Shown here piece by piece: positions 791 to 30,322 of a DNA stretch of 45,487 bases. Origin of the DNA: Candidatus Dadabacteria bacterium (lineage in GTDB: Bacteria > Desulfobacterota_D > UBA1144 > Nemesobacterales > Nemesobacteraceae); the NCBI GenBank assembly GCA_022819805.1, contig JAJEGO010000023.1, positions 1 to 45,487 on the forward strand. The letters run 5' to 3'. The first letter of the stretch is position 1. Every line of letters begins with the position of its first letter. The notes under the pieces were generated by a model that had not been told where the DNA came from, did not search any database, and saw only the letters and a program-made list of their open reading frames with translations. The position numbers were made by a program, and so were the translations under genes.

Positions 791-1015
791 ATGGAACCTG
801 GTGCTGACTATTCGGGATTTTTCCCTTTCGGATGGCTAAGAGGTTTTCGGGATGATAACTGGCAGATTTTCTGGAACAAGAAAACGGGAGATCTTTTCCT
901 GAAAGCCACAAGGGAAAACACGCTTGTAAAAGTCGGGGAGGCGTCTGACTGGATGGAGGCAAAGAAAAAAGCGGATCTTCTGATGGAAAACCCCGGGAAT
1001 TATATACAATCCTAA
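791..1015 (+). CDS. Small hypothetical protein with transposon-altered C-terminus
   Basis: This 74-residue protein is not recognised. It is rich in aromatic residues at the N-terminus (SGFFPFGWL) and ends in a charged, probably helical stretch. The ATG has a good ribosome-binding site (GTAGGAGAG) just upstream. Its last six codons and stop are not original: the left end of the tnpB element begins at 995, and the gene now terminates inside that terminal repeat. Joining 994 directly to 2299 (removing the element and one copy of the 8-bp duplication) keeps the frame open for ten more codons to a TGA at 2329-2331. The ancestral product would have been 78 residues. The insertion exchanged the tail for GNYIQS and probably left the protein largely intact. 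Confidence 0.7.
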   Translation: MEPGADYSGFFPFGWLRGFRDDNWQIFWNKKTGDLFLKATRENTLVKVGEASDWMEAKKKADLLMENPGNYIQS

Positions 1016-1018
1016 CCA
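995..1018 (+). repeat. Left terminal inverted repeat of tnpB element
   Basis: It begins GGGAATTATATAC at the outer edge and ends CTAACCA. It pairs with 2267-2290 with two mismatches (inner positions 15 and 17 from the tip). The outside neighbour is the target duplication AAAACCCC at 987-994. The stop codon of the 74-residue gene (1013-1015) lies inside this repeat. Confidence 0.9.
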
Positions 1019-1040
1019 GAATGAGGGATAAGCATTAGTA

Positions 1041-2273
1041 ATGACTAAAGAAGTCCGCACAGTAGAGTTTGTCGTCCTTCCGACAAGCAAGGCGAAGGCA
1101 CGGAAGATGTTCCAGATAGCCGGAGCGTGCAGGTACGTCTGGAACCATTTCAGGGAGAAGAACCTTGCCGACTATCAGGCATTTGTAAACGGCAAGGGGG
1201 GACGACCGCGGACCAGTTATTTCAGCCTCGGGGTGGAGTTTACCAGGCTAAGGCATGAGACGAGCTGGCTCAGGGAGCTTCCCGCCAATCCTATTAAATA
1301 TACTCTCAAGTATTTTGCGGATGCATTGAAAGAGGCGATGGTTGGCAAAAAGGGCTTCCCGAAGCCGAGAAGCAGAAAGAGAACCACCCCCGGTTTTACG
1401 CTTCCCAGCAAGGAGAATTTCGCAATAAAGAAACTTGACCGGAAGTACTCATTGCTCCGTGTTCCTCTGGTCGGCTGGGTAAAGATGACCCGCAAGGGTG
1501 GCAATCCTTACGAGGACGGAACACCCAAGCAGGTTGTGCTACGCCATGACGGGCACAGGTGGAGGGTGTTTGTCTTCTACGAAGTGGAAGTGGCGCGGAG
1601 ACCGGATGATGGTGAGTTCCTCGGAGTTGACATGAATGTCCGGCAGGTCGCTACTTCTGACGGACATTTCTATTTCCTGCCTGACCTTGAGAAAAAGGAG
1701 AGAAGGAGGAAGCGTTACCAGCGAAGGATGGCAAGGCAGATAAAGGGGTCTAACAGGCGGAAGGACACAAAGAAGAAACTTGCGAAGGTAAGCAGAAAGA
1801 TAGCCAATATCCGCAAGAACTGGGTTCACAAGACTACAAGGGAGGTTGCTGAGAGATGCGGAACGATAGTCGTAGAAGACCTTAAGGTGAAGAACATGAC
1901 CGCCTCAGCACGGGGGACGGTGGAGAATCCTGGGAAGAACGTGAAGCAGAAGACTGGACTTAACAGGGAAATGCTGGACACTGCCTTCGGTGAACTCAGA
2001 AGAAACCTTGAATACAAGTGCGGGAGGCTTATAGAAGTGAATCCCGCATATACGAGTCAGACATGCTCCGAATGCGGGCATACAGATAGAGAGAACCGTA
2101 AATCTCAAGCACGGTTCCTATGTGTTGATTGCGGGTTTGTTTCCAATGCGGACACGAACGCTGCAATGAACATACGGCGTCTGGGAATGGCGCAACTGCA
2201 CGGCGAGAAGCGTTCTGGCATTAAGCAGACTTCTAAGACCCGTGAAATTGATACGAGAACACCGTATGGTTAG
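1041..2273 (+). CDS. tnpB: TnpB RNA-guided nuclease (OrfB/IS1341 type)
   Basis: This intact 410-residue TnpB belongs to the family ancestral to Cas12, which uses a transposon-derived guide RNA to cleave DNA. The N-terminal helix-turn-helix-like part is followed by the central OrfB domain and a split RuvC nuclease. The likely catalytic acids are D197 in LGVDMN, E279 in VVEDLK and D371 in NADTNAA. A zinc ribbon (C342, C345, C361, C364) lies between the second and third. All key residues are present, so it is probably active. No TnpA tyrosine or serine transposase is adjacent. The start lies 22 bases inside the left terminal repeat, and the TAG stop (2271-2273) lies inside the right repeat, so there is almost no 3' non-coding room. 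Any guide-RNA scaffold must overlap the coding end. Confidence 0.95.
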   Translation: MTKEVRTVEFVVLPTSKAKARKMFQIAGACRYVWNHFREKNLADYQAFVNGKGGRPRTSYFSLGVEFTRLRHETSWLRELPANPIKYTLKYFADALKEAMVGKKGFPKPRSRKRTTPGFTLPSKENFAIKKLDRKYSLLRVPLVGWVKMTRKGGNPYEDGTPKQVVLRHDGHRWRVFVFYEVEVARRPDDGEFLGVDMNVRQVATSDGHFYFLPDLEKKERRRKRYQRRMARQIKGSNRRKDTKKKLAKVSRKIANIRKNWVHKTTREVAERCGTIVVEDLKVKNMTASARGTVENPGKNVKQKTGLNREMLDTAFGELRRNLEYKCGRLIEVNPAYTSQTCSECGHTDRENRKSQARFLCVDCGFVSNADTNAAMNIRRLGMAQLHGEKRSGIKQTSKTREIDTRTPYG

Positions 2274-2290
2274 TAATGTATATAATTCCC
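2267..2290 (-). repeat. Right terminal inverted repeat of tnpB element
   Basis: The reverse complement reads GGGAATTATATACATTACTA from the tip inward and matches the left repeat at 22 of 24 positions. It contains the tnpB stop codon. The target duplication AAAACCCC follows at 2291-2298. Compared with the tips of the IS1595 element at 27702 and 30322, 18 of 24 positions agree. Confidence 0.9.
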
Positions 2291-2358
2291 AAAACCCCGA
2301 TTCAGTCACAATGCAATCTACCGACAATTGAATTTGCCGCTCCGAGGACAGGCGCCTA

Positions 2359-2385
2359 TTGACTTGCCCGGCTGACCTTTATAAT
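2359..2385 (+). promoter_or_regulatory. Probable sigma70-type promoter for hydrolase pair
   Basis: TTGACT at 2359-2364 and a perfect TATAAT at 2380-2385 are separated by 15 bases, a little short of the usual 17. They lie 33 bases before the hydrolase ATG at 2419. Confidence 0.5.
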
Positions 2386-2418
2386 ATCTGTGTTTTTTAA
2401 AAACCCCCGCGTCTAACA

Positions 2419-27701: not shown

Positions 27702-27728
27702 GGGAATTATAAAGTTTACTTGACAAAC
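27702..27728 (+). repeat. Left terminal inverted repeat of IS1595 element
   Basis: It begins GGGAATTATAAAGTTTACTT at the outer edge. It contains the -35 box TTGACA of the transposase promoter, so this end is both recombination site and promoter. The target duplication AATGGAAA lies directly outside, at 27694-27701. Confidence 0.93.
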
Positions 27729-27748
27729 TCTCCGCCATTCGTTATAAT
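27720..27748 (+). promoter_or_regulatory. Transposase promoter
   Basis: A perfect TTGACA (27720-27725) and perfect TATAAT (27743-27748) are separated by 17 bases. The -35 box is inside the left terminal repeat. The transposase ATG follows 26 bases later with AAGGAGG in between. Confidence 0.9.
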
Positions 27749-27774
27749 TTTACCATAAAGTCAAGGAGGTAACG

Positions 27775-28743
27775 ATGGCAAAAGCACCCGGAAAACACAA
27801 AAGAGCGGGCATTACGCTAATCCAACTGATGGCGATGTTTCCCGATGAGGAAACGGCTACGGCGTGGTTTGAAAGCATAGTCTGGCCGAATGAACGCCAC
27901 TGCGGAAAATGCGGAAGTCTCAACACGAGCGAGGTTCCGAACGCAAAGCCTATGCCTTACTGGTGCAAGGATTGCCGGGGATATTTCAGCGTCAGAACCG
28001 GAACGGCTATAGCAAGGTCAAATGTTCCCCTTCAAAAATGGGCGATCGCAATTTACCTGTGCCTTACAAGTCTCAAGAGCGTATCGAGCATGAAGCTTCA
28101 CAGGGATATAGGGGTTTCCCAGCCTACAGCGTGGTTCATGCTTCACCGGATACGGGAAGCTTGGCAACAGGAATCGGACGGCGGTTTCAATGGTCCGGTG
28201 GAAGCCGACGAGACTTACTTCGGCGGCAGGCGGAAGAACATGCCCTCGGCAAAGCGGAAAGCTCTTGAAGGAAGGGGAGTGTCCGGCAAGACGGCGATTA
28301 CCGGAATTAAAGACCGCTCAAGCAATCAGGTAAGGGCAAAGACGGTCAGGAACACGGATGCCCGGGCGCTCCAAGGATTCATAACGAAGCACACGGAAAG
28401 AGACGCTCAGGTATATACCGATGACGCAACCGCTTATTCAAGCCTGCCGTTCCGCCATGAGACGGTCAAGCACTCGGTCGGGGAATATGTCAGGCAACAG
28501 GCGCATACGAACGTGATTGAAAGCTTCTGGTCGATGCTCAAGCGGGCGCACAAGGGAACATTCCACAAGATCAGCCCTAAGCACCTTGACCGCTACATTC
28601 AGGAATTCGTGAGCAAGCACAATATGCGGGAATCAGGAACCCTTTTTCAAATGAGAGCTACGGTCGCCGGGCTTGTCGGCAGAAACCTTCTTTACAGAGA
28701 CCTTATCCGGGACAACAGCCTTTCTTCCACCGCTAGACCGTAA
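27775..28743 (+). CDS. IS1595-family DDE transposase
   Basis: This 322-residue transposase has an N-terminal zinc ribbon (C43, C46, C64, C67 in CGKCGS and CKDCRG). A helix-turn-helix-like segment (about 95-125) and an ISXO2/IS1595 DDE domain follow. Likely catalytic residues are D145 in EADETYFGG, D216 or D217 in YTDDATAY and E249 in NVIESFWS. All look intact. The start has a strong Shine-Dalgarno and a consensus promoter reaching into the terminal repeat. Its 3' end is overlapped on the other strand by a 61-codon reading frame. I infer it can act on its own ends and perhaps on the related ends around tnpB at 995-2290. Confidence 0.95.
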   Translation: MAKAPGKHKRAGITLIQLMAMFPDEETATAWFESIVWPNERHCGKCGSLNTSEVPNAKPMPYWCKDCRGYFSVRTGTAIARSNVPLQKWAIAIYLCLTSLKSVSSMKLHRDIGVSQPTAWFMLHRIREAWQQESDGGFNGPVEADETYFGGRRKNMPSAKRKALEGRGVSGKTAITGIKDRSSNQVRAKTVRNTDARALQGFITKHTERDAQVYTDDATAYSSLPFRHETVKHSVGEYVRQQAHTNVIESFWSMLKRAHKGTFHKISPKHLDRYIQEFVSKHNMRESGTLFQMRATVAGLVGRNLLYRDLIRDNSLSSTARP

Positions 28744-28818
28744 CAAGGCTCTTGCCAGTGTTTCCGGCGTTGCTCCTTTTAGATCTTCCTTTGGGTTTAG
28801 TGTTGGTTTGTTTGCCAT
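28633..28818 (-). CDS. Small passenger protein overlapping transposase 3' end
   Basis: This 61-residue basic protein is not recognised. The N-terminal half (LKGATPETLARALLR) looks like a genuine helix and lies mostly outside the transposase gene. The C-terminal half overlaps it in antisense for 111 bases. The start is 8 bases after the stop of the preceding minus-strand gene, which suggests co-transcription, but no good ribosome-binding site is visible. It might be a small regulator of the element; no function can be assigned. Confidence 0.4.
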   Translation of the reverse strand: MANKPTLNPKEDLKGATPETLARALLRSSGGRKAVVPDKVSVKKVSADKPGDRSSHLKKGS

Positions 28819-28826
28819 AATTAGCC

Positions 28827-29081
28827 CTACTTTAAAAAATCTTTGAGATGTTCTGACGCAAGCAATTTTTCCAGCACTTCTTCCGTGCGGTTTATTTCTG
28901 CCTCAATAAGATCATGAATTAGGCACTCATCATCCGCAATTAAGTTCTTTGAATATATAGCCGTTGGATCAGATGTTCCAGGAATCTTGCTAACTATTTT
29001 TGTGAAATAATTATCCTGAATTGCCCGCAACCTAGATAACTGGGCTTGACTTACCTTTACAGATATTTTCTTGTCGCTCAT
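28827..29081 (-). CDS. Small passenger protein of unknown function
   Basis: This 84-residue protein is charged and probably all-helical, with a VKVSQAQLSRLRAIQDNYF beginning and a Glu-rich C-terminal helix (LIEAEINRTEEVLEKLL). There is no membrane segment and no recognised domain. It lies third in the minus-strand passenger cassette of the IS1595 element, 78 bases after the membrane-protein gene and 8 bases before the 61-residue frame. Confidence 0.55.
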   Translation of the reverse strand: MSDKKISVKVSQAQLSRLRAIQDNYFTKIVSKIPGTSDPTAIYSKNLIADDECLIHDLIEAEINRTEEVLEKLLASEHLKDFLK

Positions 29082-29159
29082 TTCAAGAATACCCTTGCTA
29101 GTTCTATCGAGTTGTCCAATATAGGGCAGCTATGATTAACGCGGTGAAAATCAAAACCA

Positions 29160-29402
29160 TCATTGAAAAATCTTTGAAAAAAGCTTGATAGTTAGAAGTG
29201 CAATCGGCACAGCGGCAATTAGCCCTCCGATCACCCCTCCGAGTATCCAAACTCTTACTCCCTGAATATCCTCTCTAGTCGCTAAATGTTCCGTTCTTTC
29301 CTCAAGTTTAGCTACTCTTTCACGCAGGTTCCCATTTCCACCATTCCCACCGGAACCGGGAGCTTCTTTGATGTAGATTACGTTATCCTTCTGCCCAGGC
29401 AT
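29160..29402 (-). CDS. Small coiled-coil plus membrane-segment passenger protein
   Basis: This 80-residue protein has a Gly/Asn-rich linker (about 14-24) and a heptad-like coiled coil (LRERVAKLEERTEHLATRED, about 25-45). A single hydrophobic segment follows (about 49-73, VWILGGVIGGLIAAVPIALL). This plan is found in small phage-associated membrane proteins (XhlA-like) and in some toxin-type peptides, but there is no diagnostic match. Its start overlaps the end of the preceding gene by 20 bases, so the two are translationally linked. Confidence 0.6.
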   Translation of the reverse strand: MPGQKDNVIYIKEAPGSGGNGGNGNLRERVAKLEERTEHLATREDIQGVRVWILGGVIGGLIAAVPIALLTIKLFSKIFQ

Positions 29403-29673
29403 CTAGTTTTTCCCATATATTGATAGAATCAAAACCTCGATAACTCCCTATCTCAAAAACGATTCCCGCATTACACTTAGAGGTGTCCTCCTCAAGCATT
29501 CCTAGTAGTCCCGCTATTTCAGATGTAGTTTGATATTTTTCTGTCGCAACAACCCAAAGAGGATAAGGTCTTTTTTCTAAAGAGATATAATAGGCGGGTT
29601 CAAAATGGCTTTCAATCTTGTTTTTGATCGCTTCAAGCGACCTCTCTTGAGGCGACACTAGAAACAGTTTCAT
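29383..29673 (-). CDS. Small soluble passenger protein, first gene of cassette
   Basis: This 96-residue protein is not recognised. It alternates short strands and helices: MKLFLVSPQ, YPLWVVATEKYQTTSEIAGLL, NAGIVFEIGSYRGF. There is no membrane segment. The ATG at 29673 has a strong AGGAGG 6 bases upstream, making it the best-supported passenger start. It opens the minus-strand cassette and overlaps the coiled-coil/membrane protein gene by 20 bases. A cytoplasmic protein translationally coupled to a small membrane protein would suit a two-component toxin/immunity or regulatory pair, but nothing in the sequence proves it. Confidence 0.6.
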   Translation of the reverse strand: MKLFLVSPQERSLEAIKNKIESHFEPAYYISLEKRPYPLWVVATEKYQTTSEIAGLLGMLEEDTSKCNAGIVFEIGSYRGFDSINIWEKLDAWAEG

Positions 29674-29745
29674 GGAATCCTCCTGAAAGGCTTTTTAAGG
29701 CTATCACCTTTCTGCATCTACTGCAAACATTTTTACATAGTTGAA

Positions 29746-29774
29746 TTATCACGTATAATAGCAACTGTTGACAA
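29746..29774 (-). promoter_or_regulatory. Possible promoter of passenger cassette
   Basis: On the minus strand TTGTCA (29774-29769) and TGATAA (29751-29746) are spaced by 17 bases. They lie about 75 bases before the first passenger start at 29673. Confidence 0.4.
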
Positions 29775-29883
29775 CGGGCAGAACCCGCTCCGTAGGGTCT
29801 CCATTCTGTTATAATACCCGCCTGGGAAATAAACGGAACTTCAAGTCTGCATAAGCATGTCAGAGTTAAGATTAGGAATGTGA

Positions 29884-29958
29884 AATCGGGATAGGGGAAA
29901 ATCTCGCGATTCATCCCCTCCCACACCACCGTGCATATGGGTCCGTACACGGCGGTTC
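29884..29958 (-). ncRNA. Group II intron 3' end (domains V-VI), probable remnant
   Basis: On the minus strand AACCGCCGTGTACGGACCC is followed by ATATGCACGGTGGTGTGGGA. Together they resemble the domain V hairpin of bacterial group II introns, with CCGCCGTG pairing with CACGGTGG. A second hairpin (GGGGA...TCCCC, 29918-29894) with unpaired purines, then CCTATCCCGATTT, matches domain VI and the usual intron end. No reverse transcriptase gene lies upstream, so the intron is truncated or stripped of its protein. I recognise the pattern from memory of intron ends; a covariance-model search was not possible here. Confidence 0.55.
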
Positions 29959-30129
29959 GACGGATTTAAGCTAGCTATATTGGCTGACAAAACTACGGTT
30001 CGAGAAAGGGAAAGGCGAATGGCGGTTCGGAGTACGGCAGAAGAAAACAAGAGACGACTAGCAGAGTTCCAAAATAGATAACGAAGCATTTCAAAAGATG
30101 TGCAGCGCAAGCACAAGGAGAAAATACGC

Positions 30130-30285
30130 ATGGATTATGATAGGAAAAAACCTGTGAAAAAGAGATGGCCGAAAGTTCCGGGAAGATGGATCAATGATCC
30201 GAAGAAAAAATCGAGTGAGAAACCTAAGAAAAGCCTAAAGGGAGATTTCTCCCATGAGCGTTCAAGAAATCTTGAAAATCTTTGA
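30130..30285 (+). CDS. Small basic protein near right end of IS1595 element
   Basis: This frame gives a 51-residue, very Lys/Arg-rich product (DRKKPVKKRWPKVPGRW) of unknown function. The ATG at 30130 follows AAGGAG at a suitable distance; a GTG at 30100 would add ten residues. A second, overlapping frame begins at an ATG at 30254, reads through the right terminal repeat and stops at 30401-30403. It has GGGAGA upstream and is about equally uncertain. Confidence 0.3.
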   Translation: MDYDRKKPVKKRWPKVPGRWINDPKKKSSEKPKKSLKGDFSHERSRNLENL

Positions 30286-30295
30286 GAGTGAAAAG

Positions 30296-30322
30296 GTTGG
30301 TCAAGTAAAGTTTATAATTCCC
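30296..30322 (-). repeat. Right terminal inverted repeat of IS1595 element
   Basis: The reverse complement begins GGGAATTATAAACTTTACTT at the tip. Of 27 positions, 25 match the left repeat. The target duplication AATGGAAA follows at 30323-30330. Confidence 0.93.

Follow-up and report, generated by a model that had tools for sequence, protein, structure and literature searches.

We have analysed a stretch of 45,487 nucleotides from a Candidatus Dadabacteria bacterium (GenBank assembly GCA_022819805.1, contig JAJEGO010000023.1), hereafter called the window, which forms contig C17 of a draft genome of 1.57 Mb; our analysis is concerned with the unit at positions 987-2298, where tnpB, the gene of a predicted RNA-guided nuclease, is the only gene, with no second gene present, and is enclosed by terminal inverted repeats and a target duplication. 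An initial annotation of the window had described a complete tnpB between 24-bp repeats that match at 22 of 24 positions, with a perfect 8-bp duplication on both sides, and all of these elements are borne out by the letters of the window: the repeats are complementary at 22/24 positions, and the TAG stop codon of tnpB (2271-2273) is located within the right repeat. The genome holds a single copy of the unit, which consists of the following elements:

987-994, no strand: left 8-bp target duplication AAAACCCC, read from the window letters
995-1018, + strand: left terminal inverted repeat GGGAATTATATACAATCCTAACCA, 24 bp
1041-2273, + strand: tnpB open reading frame, 410 aa, intact (0 internal stops)
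2267-2290, + strand: right terminal inverted repeat, 24 bp, which includes the tnpB stop
2291-2298, no strand: right 8-bp target duplication AAAACCCC, matching the left copy at 8/8 positions

The site of this insertion is found empty in the sister genomes. The neighbouring endonuclease III gene has been located in 12 of the 13 genomes of the genus, 11 of these being other than the window's own, and the insertion point is uninterrupted in all of the 11 orthologous loci (11/11); in one of them, from genome G005, the sequence agrees letter for letter with the junction GATGGAAAACCCCGATTCAGTCACAATG, i.e. a single AAAACCCC plus its flanks, as had been predicted. As judged by eye, a 74-aa frame at 791-1015 has had its last codons replaced by the insertion and runs on across the joined flanks of the empty site.

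Judged by its sequence, its RuvC D/E/D residues and its zinc ribbon, the protein is a member of the TnpB family: it scores 80 bits on Pfam OrfB_IS605, 70 bits on Cas12f1-like_TNB and 237 bits on NCBIfam guided_TnpB (cut-off 100), and its closest named relatives come from metagenome-assembled genomes of Candidatus Dadabacteria. Residues D197, E279 and D371, which we take to be the RuvC residues from what is known of the family, are invariant together with the zinc-ribbon cysteines in an alignment of one member from each of the three lineages that are introduced below. The relatives of the protein in the Protein Data Bank (PDB) include the TnpB chains 8h1j and 8bf8/8exa, of which 8EXA is ISDra2 TnpB (PMC10711439).

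The arrangement is not confined to the window. Among the 100 relatives searched, the 29 matches that are at least 70% identical to the window protein all belong to the genus; 23 of these have been placed and 21 are counted here as lineage 1, with L034 (which shares its site with L030) and L036 (no left end placed) left out, and with six further matches uncounted (one contig-edge copy and five fragments). The initial annotation had named the absence of the repeats around other copies as grounds for refutation, and had called for a search for related units with the same ends: the insertions are recurrent, with best-placed repeats that match at 16-23 of 24 positions in the 21 counted copies, and with duplications of 8/8 in 7 copies, 7/8 in 6, 6/8 in 2 and lower in 6. 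The same genus holds a second, distant lineage between similar ends (such as GGGAATTATGTATTTAAGTTGACA), whose TnpB is 26-31% identical to that of lineage 1; 20 of its 27 matches are counted, with duplications of 8/8 in 7 copies, 7/8 in 3, 6/8 in 3 and lower in 7, the copies left out being L218 (which shares its site with L206), L215 (from another genus), and L216, L221, L225, L223 and L224 (decayed, cut, or with no pair placed).

A third lineage is found in another phylum. A generic search for repeats and duplications around 38 TnpB relatives from outside the genus gave one clear case, L122 from the Caldilineaceae (Chloroflexota), with a score of 23 against shuffled values of at most 20, and this case led to the discovery of lineage 3, which is present in 6 of 46 Caldilineaceae genomes and has 27 matches in G120 alone, a genome assembled as one 5.06-Mb contig that has the most copies of any genome. 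Its ends are GGGAATTATATACTTGACTGCACA and variants, and its 28 counted copies (30 loci minus L330 and L353, which are cut; three shorter matches are without a locus) have duplications of 8/8 in 15, 7/8 in 3, 6/8 in 3 and lower in 7; the repeats of lineages 2 and 3 are identical at 11 to 24 of 24 positions. The same search scored L094 at 21, with a duplication of 6/8. A tentative case is L111 (Rhodothermaceae), where the repeats can be aligned only with a 1-nt gap, the duplication is 5/8 and a G precedes it; a further candidate, L037, has an 8/8 duplication but weak repeats (12/20), and has been kept out of the counts.

A duplication of at least 7/8 is seen in 41 of the 69 counted copies (13/21, 10/20 and 18/28 in lineages 1, 2 and 3). 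The placement of the unit ends used the duplication in its score, for which a run with the left and right halves swapped between copies serves as control: under the same rule, at least 7/8 is reached in 2/420, 0/380 and 8/756 combinations, respectively, and the duplications of lineage 1 exceed chance. The distance from repeat to gene is similar across the 69 insertions, and the tnpB frames of lineages 1 and 2 stop inside the right repeat or a few bases from it. For one lineage 2 copy, an empty site is seen in 2 of the 12 loci examined, the remaining 10 being unalignable across the junction.

The carrier of these units is best compared with transposons of the IS1595 family. PF12762, the IS1595-type transposase, is matched in 12 of the 13 genomes of the genus (52 rows in total, with 6 matches in the window's own genome), and 13 IS1595 elements have been delimited with both ends, all of them with 8/8 duplications, the other rows being fragments or having unlocated ends. 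On NCBIfam transpos_IS1595, where the cut-off is 75, the transposase of element L269 (genome G006) reaches 190.9 bits; the element has an 8/8 duplication and ends that are identical to the left repeat of the window unit at 18 and 19 of 24 positions, i.e. of the lineage 1 kind, and element L263 (G002) has ends of the lineage 2 kind. The right repeats of the units agree with the nearest IS1595 element end at a median of 19, 19 and 21 and a minimum of 13, 15 and 15 of 24 positions (lineages 1, 2 and 3), identities that are inflated by the tip pattern used to place the units; random 24-mers of the window reach a median of 9 and a maximum of 16. The window itself contains one such element:

27702-30322, + strand: IS1595-family element of 2.6 kb, a possible helper, with its transposase frame at about 27748-28740 and duplication AATGGAAA (8/8)

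The transposase of this element also scores above the NCBIfam IS1595 cut-off; its ends are identical to the left repeat of the unit at 16/24 positions, and it is not the best-matching helper. Short frames are located behind its transposase. On the strength of its IS1595-like inverted repeats and its 8-bp duplication, the tnpB unit would be placed in the IS1595 family, and it was probably mobilised in trans by an IS1595 transposase. The initial annotation had attributed the copy to a cut-and-paste DDE transposase of the IS1595 type; the relatives support the type, and no excision was seen that would speak for cut-and-paste.

The feature that may tie the insertions to the activity of TnpB is a base at their edge. 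When the flanks are read in the orientation of tnpB, with position -1 being the base that immediately precedes the left duplication, a G is found at -1 in 19/20 copies of lineage 2 and 28/28 of lineage 3, and at the mirrored position on the right side in 4/20 and 6/28; for the two lineages together this amounts to 47/48 against 10/48 (combined p 3e-26). In lineage 1, a purine is located at -1 in 20/21 copies (mirror 9/21), and the first base of the duplication is an A in 18/21 left and 20/21 right copies. The empty alleles of G005, G007 and G011 already carry the G. If the guide of TnpB starts at the right edge of the unit, the target-adjacent motif (TAM) must lie at this one-sided base, which in the window corresponds to the following positions:

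982-987, + strand: predicted TAM, GATGG directly before the left duplication, together with the first base A of the duplication, at the place of the lineage 1 motif
2291-2310, + strand: predicted guide, the right duplication plus the flank that follows, of assumed length, as placed by the TAM-like base and the scaffold end

It is unlikely, in our estimation, that TnpB is a passive passenger of the unit without a flank-derived guide, and that the one-sided base reflects a target preference of the transposase or the context of the gene. Such an explanation would agree with the varied passengers that the IS1595 elements of the genus carry, and with duplications that are A/T-rich in units both with and without tnpB; but the preference exists only on the 5' side of tnpB, even in the nine counted units that have identical 24-bp repeats (G on the left in 9/9, on the mirrored side in 2/9), and 15 units of the genus without tnpB do not show it: G occurs there at 9/30 ends (Fisher 3e-6 against lineage 2), and three insertions at one palindrome account for six of the nine. 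Since the two-base words before the left duplication vary (TG, GG, AG, CG), a ribosome-binding or start-codon context is not favoured as the cause. A transposase that reads identical ends should give no one-sidedness, and we therefore infer that TnpB selects, through its TAM, which insertions persist; in principle, a sequence deeper inside the unit could alternatively orient the transposase. A single natural control is offered by a 222-bp unit of G120 (L392:110-331), where, in the direction of the RNA, a G precedes the duplication; this unit has an 8/8 duplication TTAAATTA and no tnpB, has kept the RNA scaffold, and has an extra hairpin of ~20 nt beside one repeat.

The right edge of the unit, where the guide would start, also appears to be the end of an RNA, for which the following elements are predicted in the window:

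2161-2290, + strand: predicted omega-RNA scaffold, formed by the tnpB 3' end and the right repeat, with an arbitrary 5' limit
2183-2188, + strand: loop GGGAAU, predicted by complementarity to be the pseudoknot partner of 2285-2290
2285-2290, + strand: tip AUUCCC of the right repeat, predicted 3' end of the scaffold

Conservation at fourfold-degenerate sites of lineage 1 is 0.84 in codons 381-400 and 0.71 in codons 401-416, and 0.39-0.65 elsewhere; in lineage 2 it is 0.70-0.71 in codons 361-400, but also 0.75 in codons 301-320 and 0.67 in codons 1-20. In both lineages, conservation is higher in the right repeat than in the left (0.79 vs 0.67 and 0.74 vs 0.62), and in lineage 2 the right repeat co-varies with the tnpB 3' end; both observations weigh against a passive passenger. 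For 20 lineage 2 sequences, RNAalifold gives 21 pairs, 8 of them changed on both sides, with a covariation score that is reached by 0/500 shuffles, although scores of this kind are inflated by related rows. In the last helix, the tnpB 3' end is paired with the right repeat through four pairs, two of which show 10 and 8 double changes out of 20, with every cell paired. The arms of this helix (TGTAT/ATACA, TCCTT/AAGGA, TGTAG/CTACA, TATAC/GTATA and others, TAGAG/GACTA pairing at only 3/5) form 87/100 pairs in total, where 10000 shuffles give a mean of 66 and a maximum of 80, and arms AUAUGCUUG/CAAGUAUAU are seen by eye at the same place in lineage 3. Through the covariation of lineage 2 and the synonymous conservation, these observations lend support to an omega-RNA that would end at the right edge of the unit, to which the folds of lineage 1 and of the window copy add little.

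A second contact of the right repeat is suggested by an upstream hairpin, in which most copies have the loop GGGAAU opposite a repeat tip of AUUCCC. Copies with the tip GCCCC, from other Caldilineaceae, have GGGGC or GGGGU in the loop, and L231 combines the tip UUUCC with the loop GGAAA. Over 68 copies, 320/340 of the loop-tip positions can pair, against a mean of 308 and a maximum of 318 in 5000 shuffles, a count that retains the 4/20 lineage 2 loops that were mis-picked by the loop pattern. A pseudoknot of the same kind has been described for TnpB RNAs (PMC10711439). The upstream pairings of the right repeat, the one-sided base and the other lineages go beyond what the initial annotation had described.

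We consider it probable that the window unit belongs to the non-autonomous IS1595-type units, and that its TnpB takes a new aim with every insertion, cuts the empty allele, and is retained by homing. An IS1595 transposase made elsewhere would recognise both inverted repeats and insert the unit with an 8-bp duplication; transcription through the tnpB 3' end and the right repeat would yield an omega-RNA whose scaffold ends at the right edge of the unit, so that the flanking target DNA would become the guide at every new insertion. TnpB would then recognise the uninterrupted allele, where the TAM is provided by the left flank and the matching target by the duplication and the right flank, and would cut it, and repair would copy the unit in, i.e. 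the homing and retention that have been proposed for IS605 TnpB. Insertions that do not have a TAM on the correct side would be undefended and lost, which may be the cause of the base preference that we observe.

It is much less plausible that TnpB acts in these units as a regulator and not as a retention nuclease: RNA-guided, nuclease-dead relatives of TnpB do exist, but the three aligned members agree without exception in the catalytic D, E and D and in the zinc-ribbon cysteines. The least credible explanation, an IS200/IS605- or IS607-type element nested in an older IS1595 unit or miniature inverted-repeat transposable element (MITE) that supplies the repeats, would place TnpB in the families where it is otherwise known, but it is opposed by the little space that is left for other ends where tnpB stops in or near the right repeat (lineages 1 and 2), by the similar repeat-to-gene distances of the 69 insertions, and by PF01797, the IS605 transposase family, having one weak match per genome (13/13 genomes of the genus, frames of 290-310 aa) that lies several kb from tnpB on shared contigs, IS607 recombinases not having been searched for. 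A constant presence of tnpA beside the homologues, which the initial annotation had said would weaken its reading, is not observed: in the 13 genomes, no PF01797 match adjoins any tnpB match.

Several points weigh against retention by a re-aimed TnpB. The transcript, the cleavage, the homing and the transposition in trans are steps that we infer. With respect to the helper, the draft genome G007 has tnpB units and zero PF12762 matches, and a search of 1.6 Mb (32%) of G120 did not turn up any frame of an IS1595 transposase. With respect to the insertions, the duplication is below 6/8 in 6/21, 7/20 and 7/28 counted copies of lineages 1, 2 and 3, and the motif of lineage 1 is weaker than that of lineages 2 and 3. 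With respect to the RNA, the 3' end of the window unit (130 nt) folds no better than shuffles (z -0.24), and an Rfam search of window positions 1900-2400 gave no match; the terminal hairpin of lineage 1 is variable, and its consensus helices are mostly invariant, with nearly no covariation; the lineage 2 structure is derived from the same alignment on which its changes were counted; and the pseudoknot signal is a small excess that rests on few changes.

In the IS200/IS605 scheme, as in ISDra2, a TnpB of the same family is accompanied by an omega-RNA that overlaps the 3' end of the gene, a guide from the right flank and a TAM in the left flank, as is also predicted for the units here. IS200/IS605 elements have no terminal inverted repeats and make no target duplication, whereas the window-type units have 24-bp inverted repeats and 8-bp duplications, and no IS605-type transposase partner has been found in the 13 genomes; furthermore, the TAM-like base of lineages 2 and 3 is not part of the duplication, and the guide would begin with the duplication. 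A TnpB of the IS605 type acts as a gene drive in plasmids (PMC11870625). The solo-tnpB elements of the IS1341 group also consist of one tnpB and measure about 1.25-1.4 kb, but their LE and RE ends are of the IS605 kind, unlike the inverted repeats with duplications seen here; their autonomy is unclear according to the same source (PMC9956272). Fanzors, the eukaryotic homologues of TnpB, occur in DDE transposons that include IS4-type elements of Ectocarpus and its virus, plus the SfAV element (PMC3627910, PMC10711439), and these share with our units the inverted repeats and the duplications, and have a guide RNA that reaches into the repeat, as is predicted here; however, their hosts are eukaryotic or viral and the duplication is reported to be part of the RNA scaffold (PMC10711439), whereas in lineages 2 and 3 the duplication appears to be guide, and the carrier is of a bacterial, IS1595 type.

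With other IS1595 elements that have passengers, such as DNA methylases, the units share similar ends and the 8-bp duplication; they differ in that the tnpB unit is without a transposase and in that the terminal repeat appears to serve its passenger as RNA. IS607 uses a serine recombinase and has no such inverted repeats or duplication; no serine recombinase gene is located beside tnpB in the window unit, the rest of the genome not having been searched for one. The inclusion of a right-flank nucleotide in the RNA scaffold of IS607 TnpB (PMC10711439) may be compared with the near-constant first duplication base of lineage 1. The literature listings, with ISfinder and most subscription papers outside reach, contain no earlier report of a bacterial TnpB in IS1595 units, in agreement with the initial annotation, which knew of no such carrier.

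In a tree of 31 rows, lineages 2 and 3 are sisters (support 95/98), and lineage 1 is separated from them by a 100/99 branch, with relatives on both sides that are without detected ends of this kind; the unit arrangement is thus found in two well-separated parts of the tree, which is most simply explained by at least two captures of TnpB by such units. Nearest to lineage 1 in this tree is L037, 49% identical to the window protein. At its locus (G022:C4, about 380-540 and 611-1732), the TnpB-like gene is followed by 39-nt repeats, two full and one partial, with 27-nt spacers, the repeat ending in ATTCCCAAG, which resembles the repeat tip of the IS1595-type units; it is possible that this locus is a minimal type V CRISPR system.

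On balance, and with less assurance than for the window unit itself, we favour a broader view: that of a bacterial DDE-type transposon whose terminal inverted repeat has two jobs, being the site of the transposase and also the 3' stem and pseudoknot strand of the guide scaffold, where each insertion re-programs TnpB with the newly duplicated target, the nuclease filters for a TAM on the proper side, and the arrangement arose at least two times, in at least two phyla. Because L037 has a short repeat-spacer array, such units could be one road from a transposon nuclease to the small CRISPR effectors. If this view is correct, homing by TnpB is not bound to IS605 and IS607 transposases and can be combined with a DDE-type transposon that is not strict in its choice of target, the record of insertions itself reveals the TAM, and bacteria offer a parallel to the capture of Fanzors by eukaryotic DDE transposons; the movement of some solo tnpB genes may also be explained. 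The nucleases are compact and their predicted TAM is very short, one G in lineages 2 and 3, and G120, with its 27 matches on one 5.06-Mb contig, makes the idea testable.

The IS1595-type units of the genus carry varied passengers (L265, L269, L272, L278, L146, L148 and L162), among which are an N6/N4 DNA methylase with an HNH domain, a C5 DNA methylase, a gag-type aspartyl protease, a HELLH-motif protein that has no Pfam match, and small proteins with the motif AIQSFGW.CNE. The IS1595-type elements L148 (G000:C55), L157 (G002:C8) and L277/L278 (G012:C47, G007:C13) are inserted at TGTTTCACGTGAAACA, a palindrome that was checked in L148, L157 and L278 and that we take to be a parS, or ParB-site, palindrome; the L277/L278 elements are without a transposase, and the duplication at this site covers a half-site of the palindrome.

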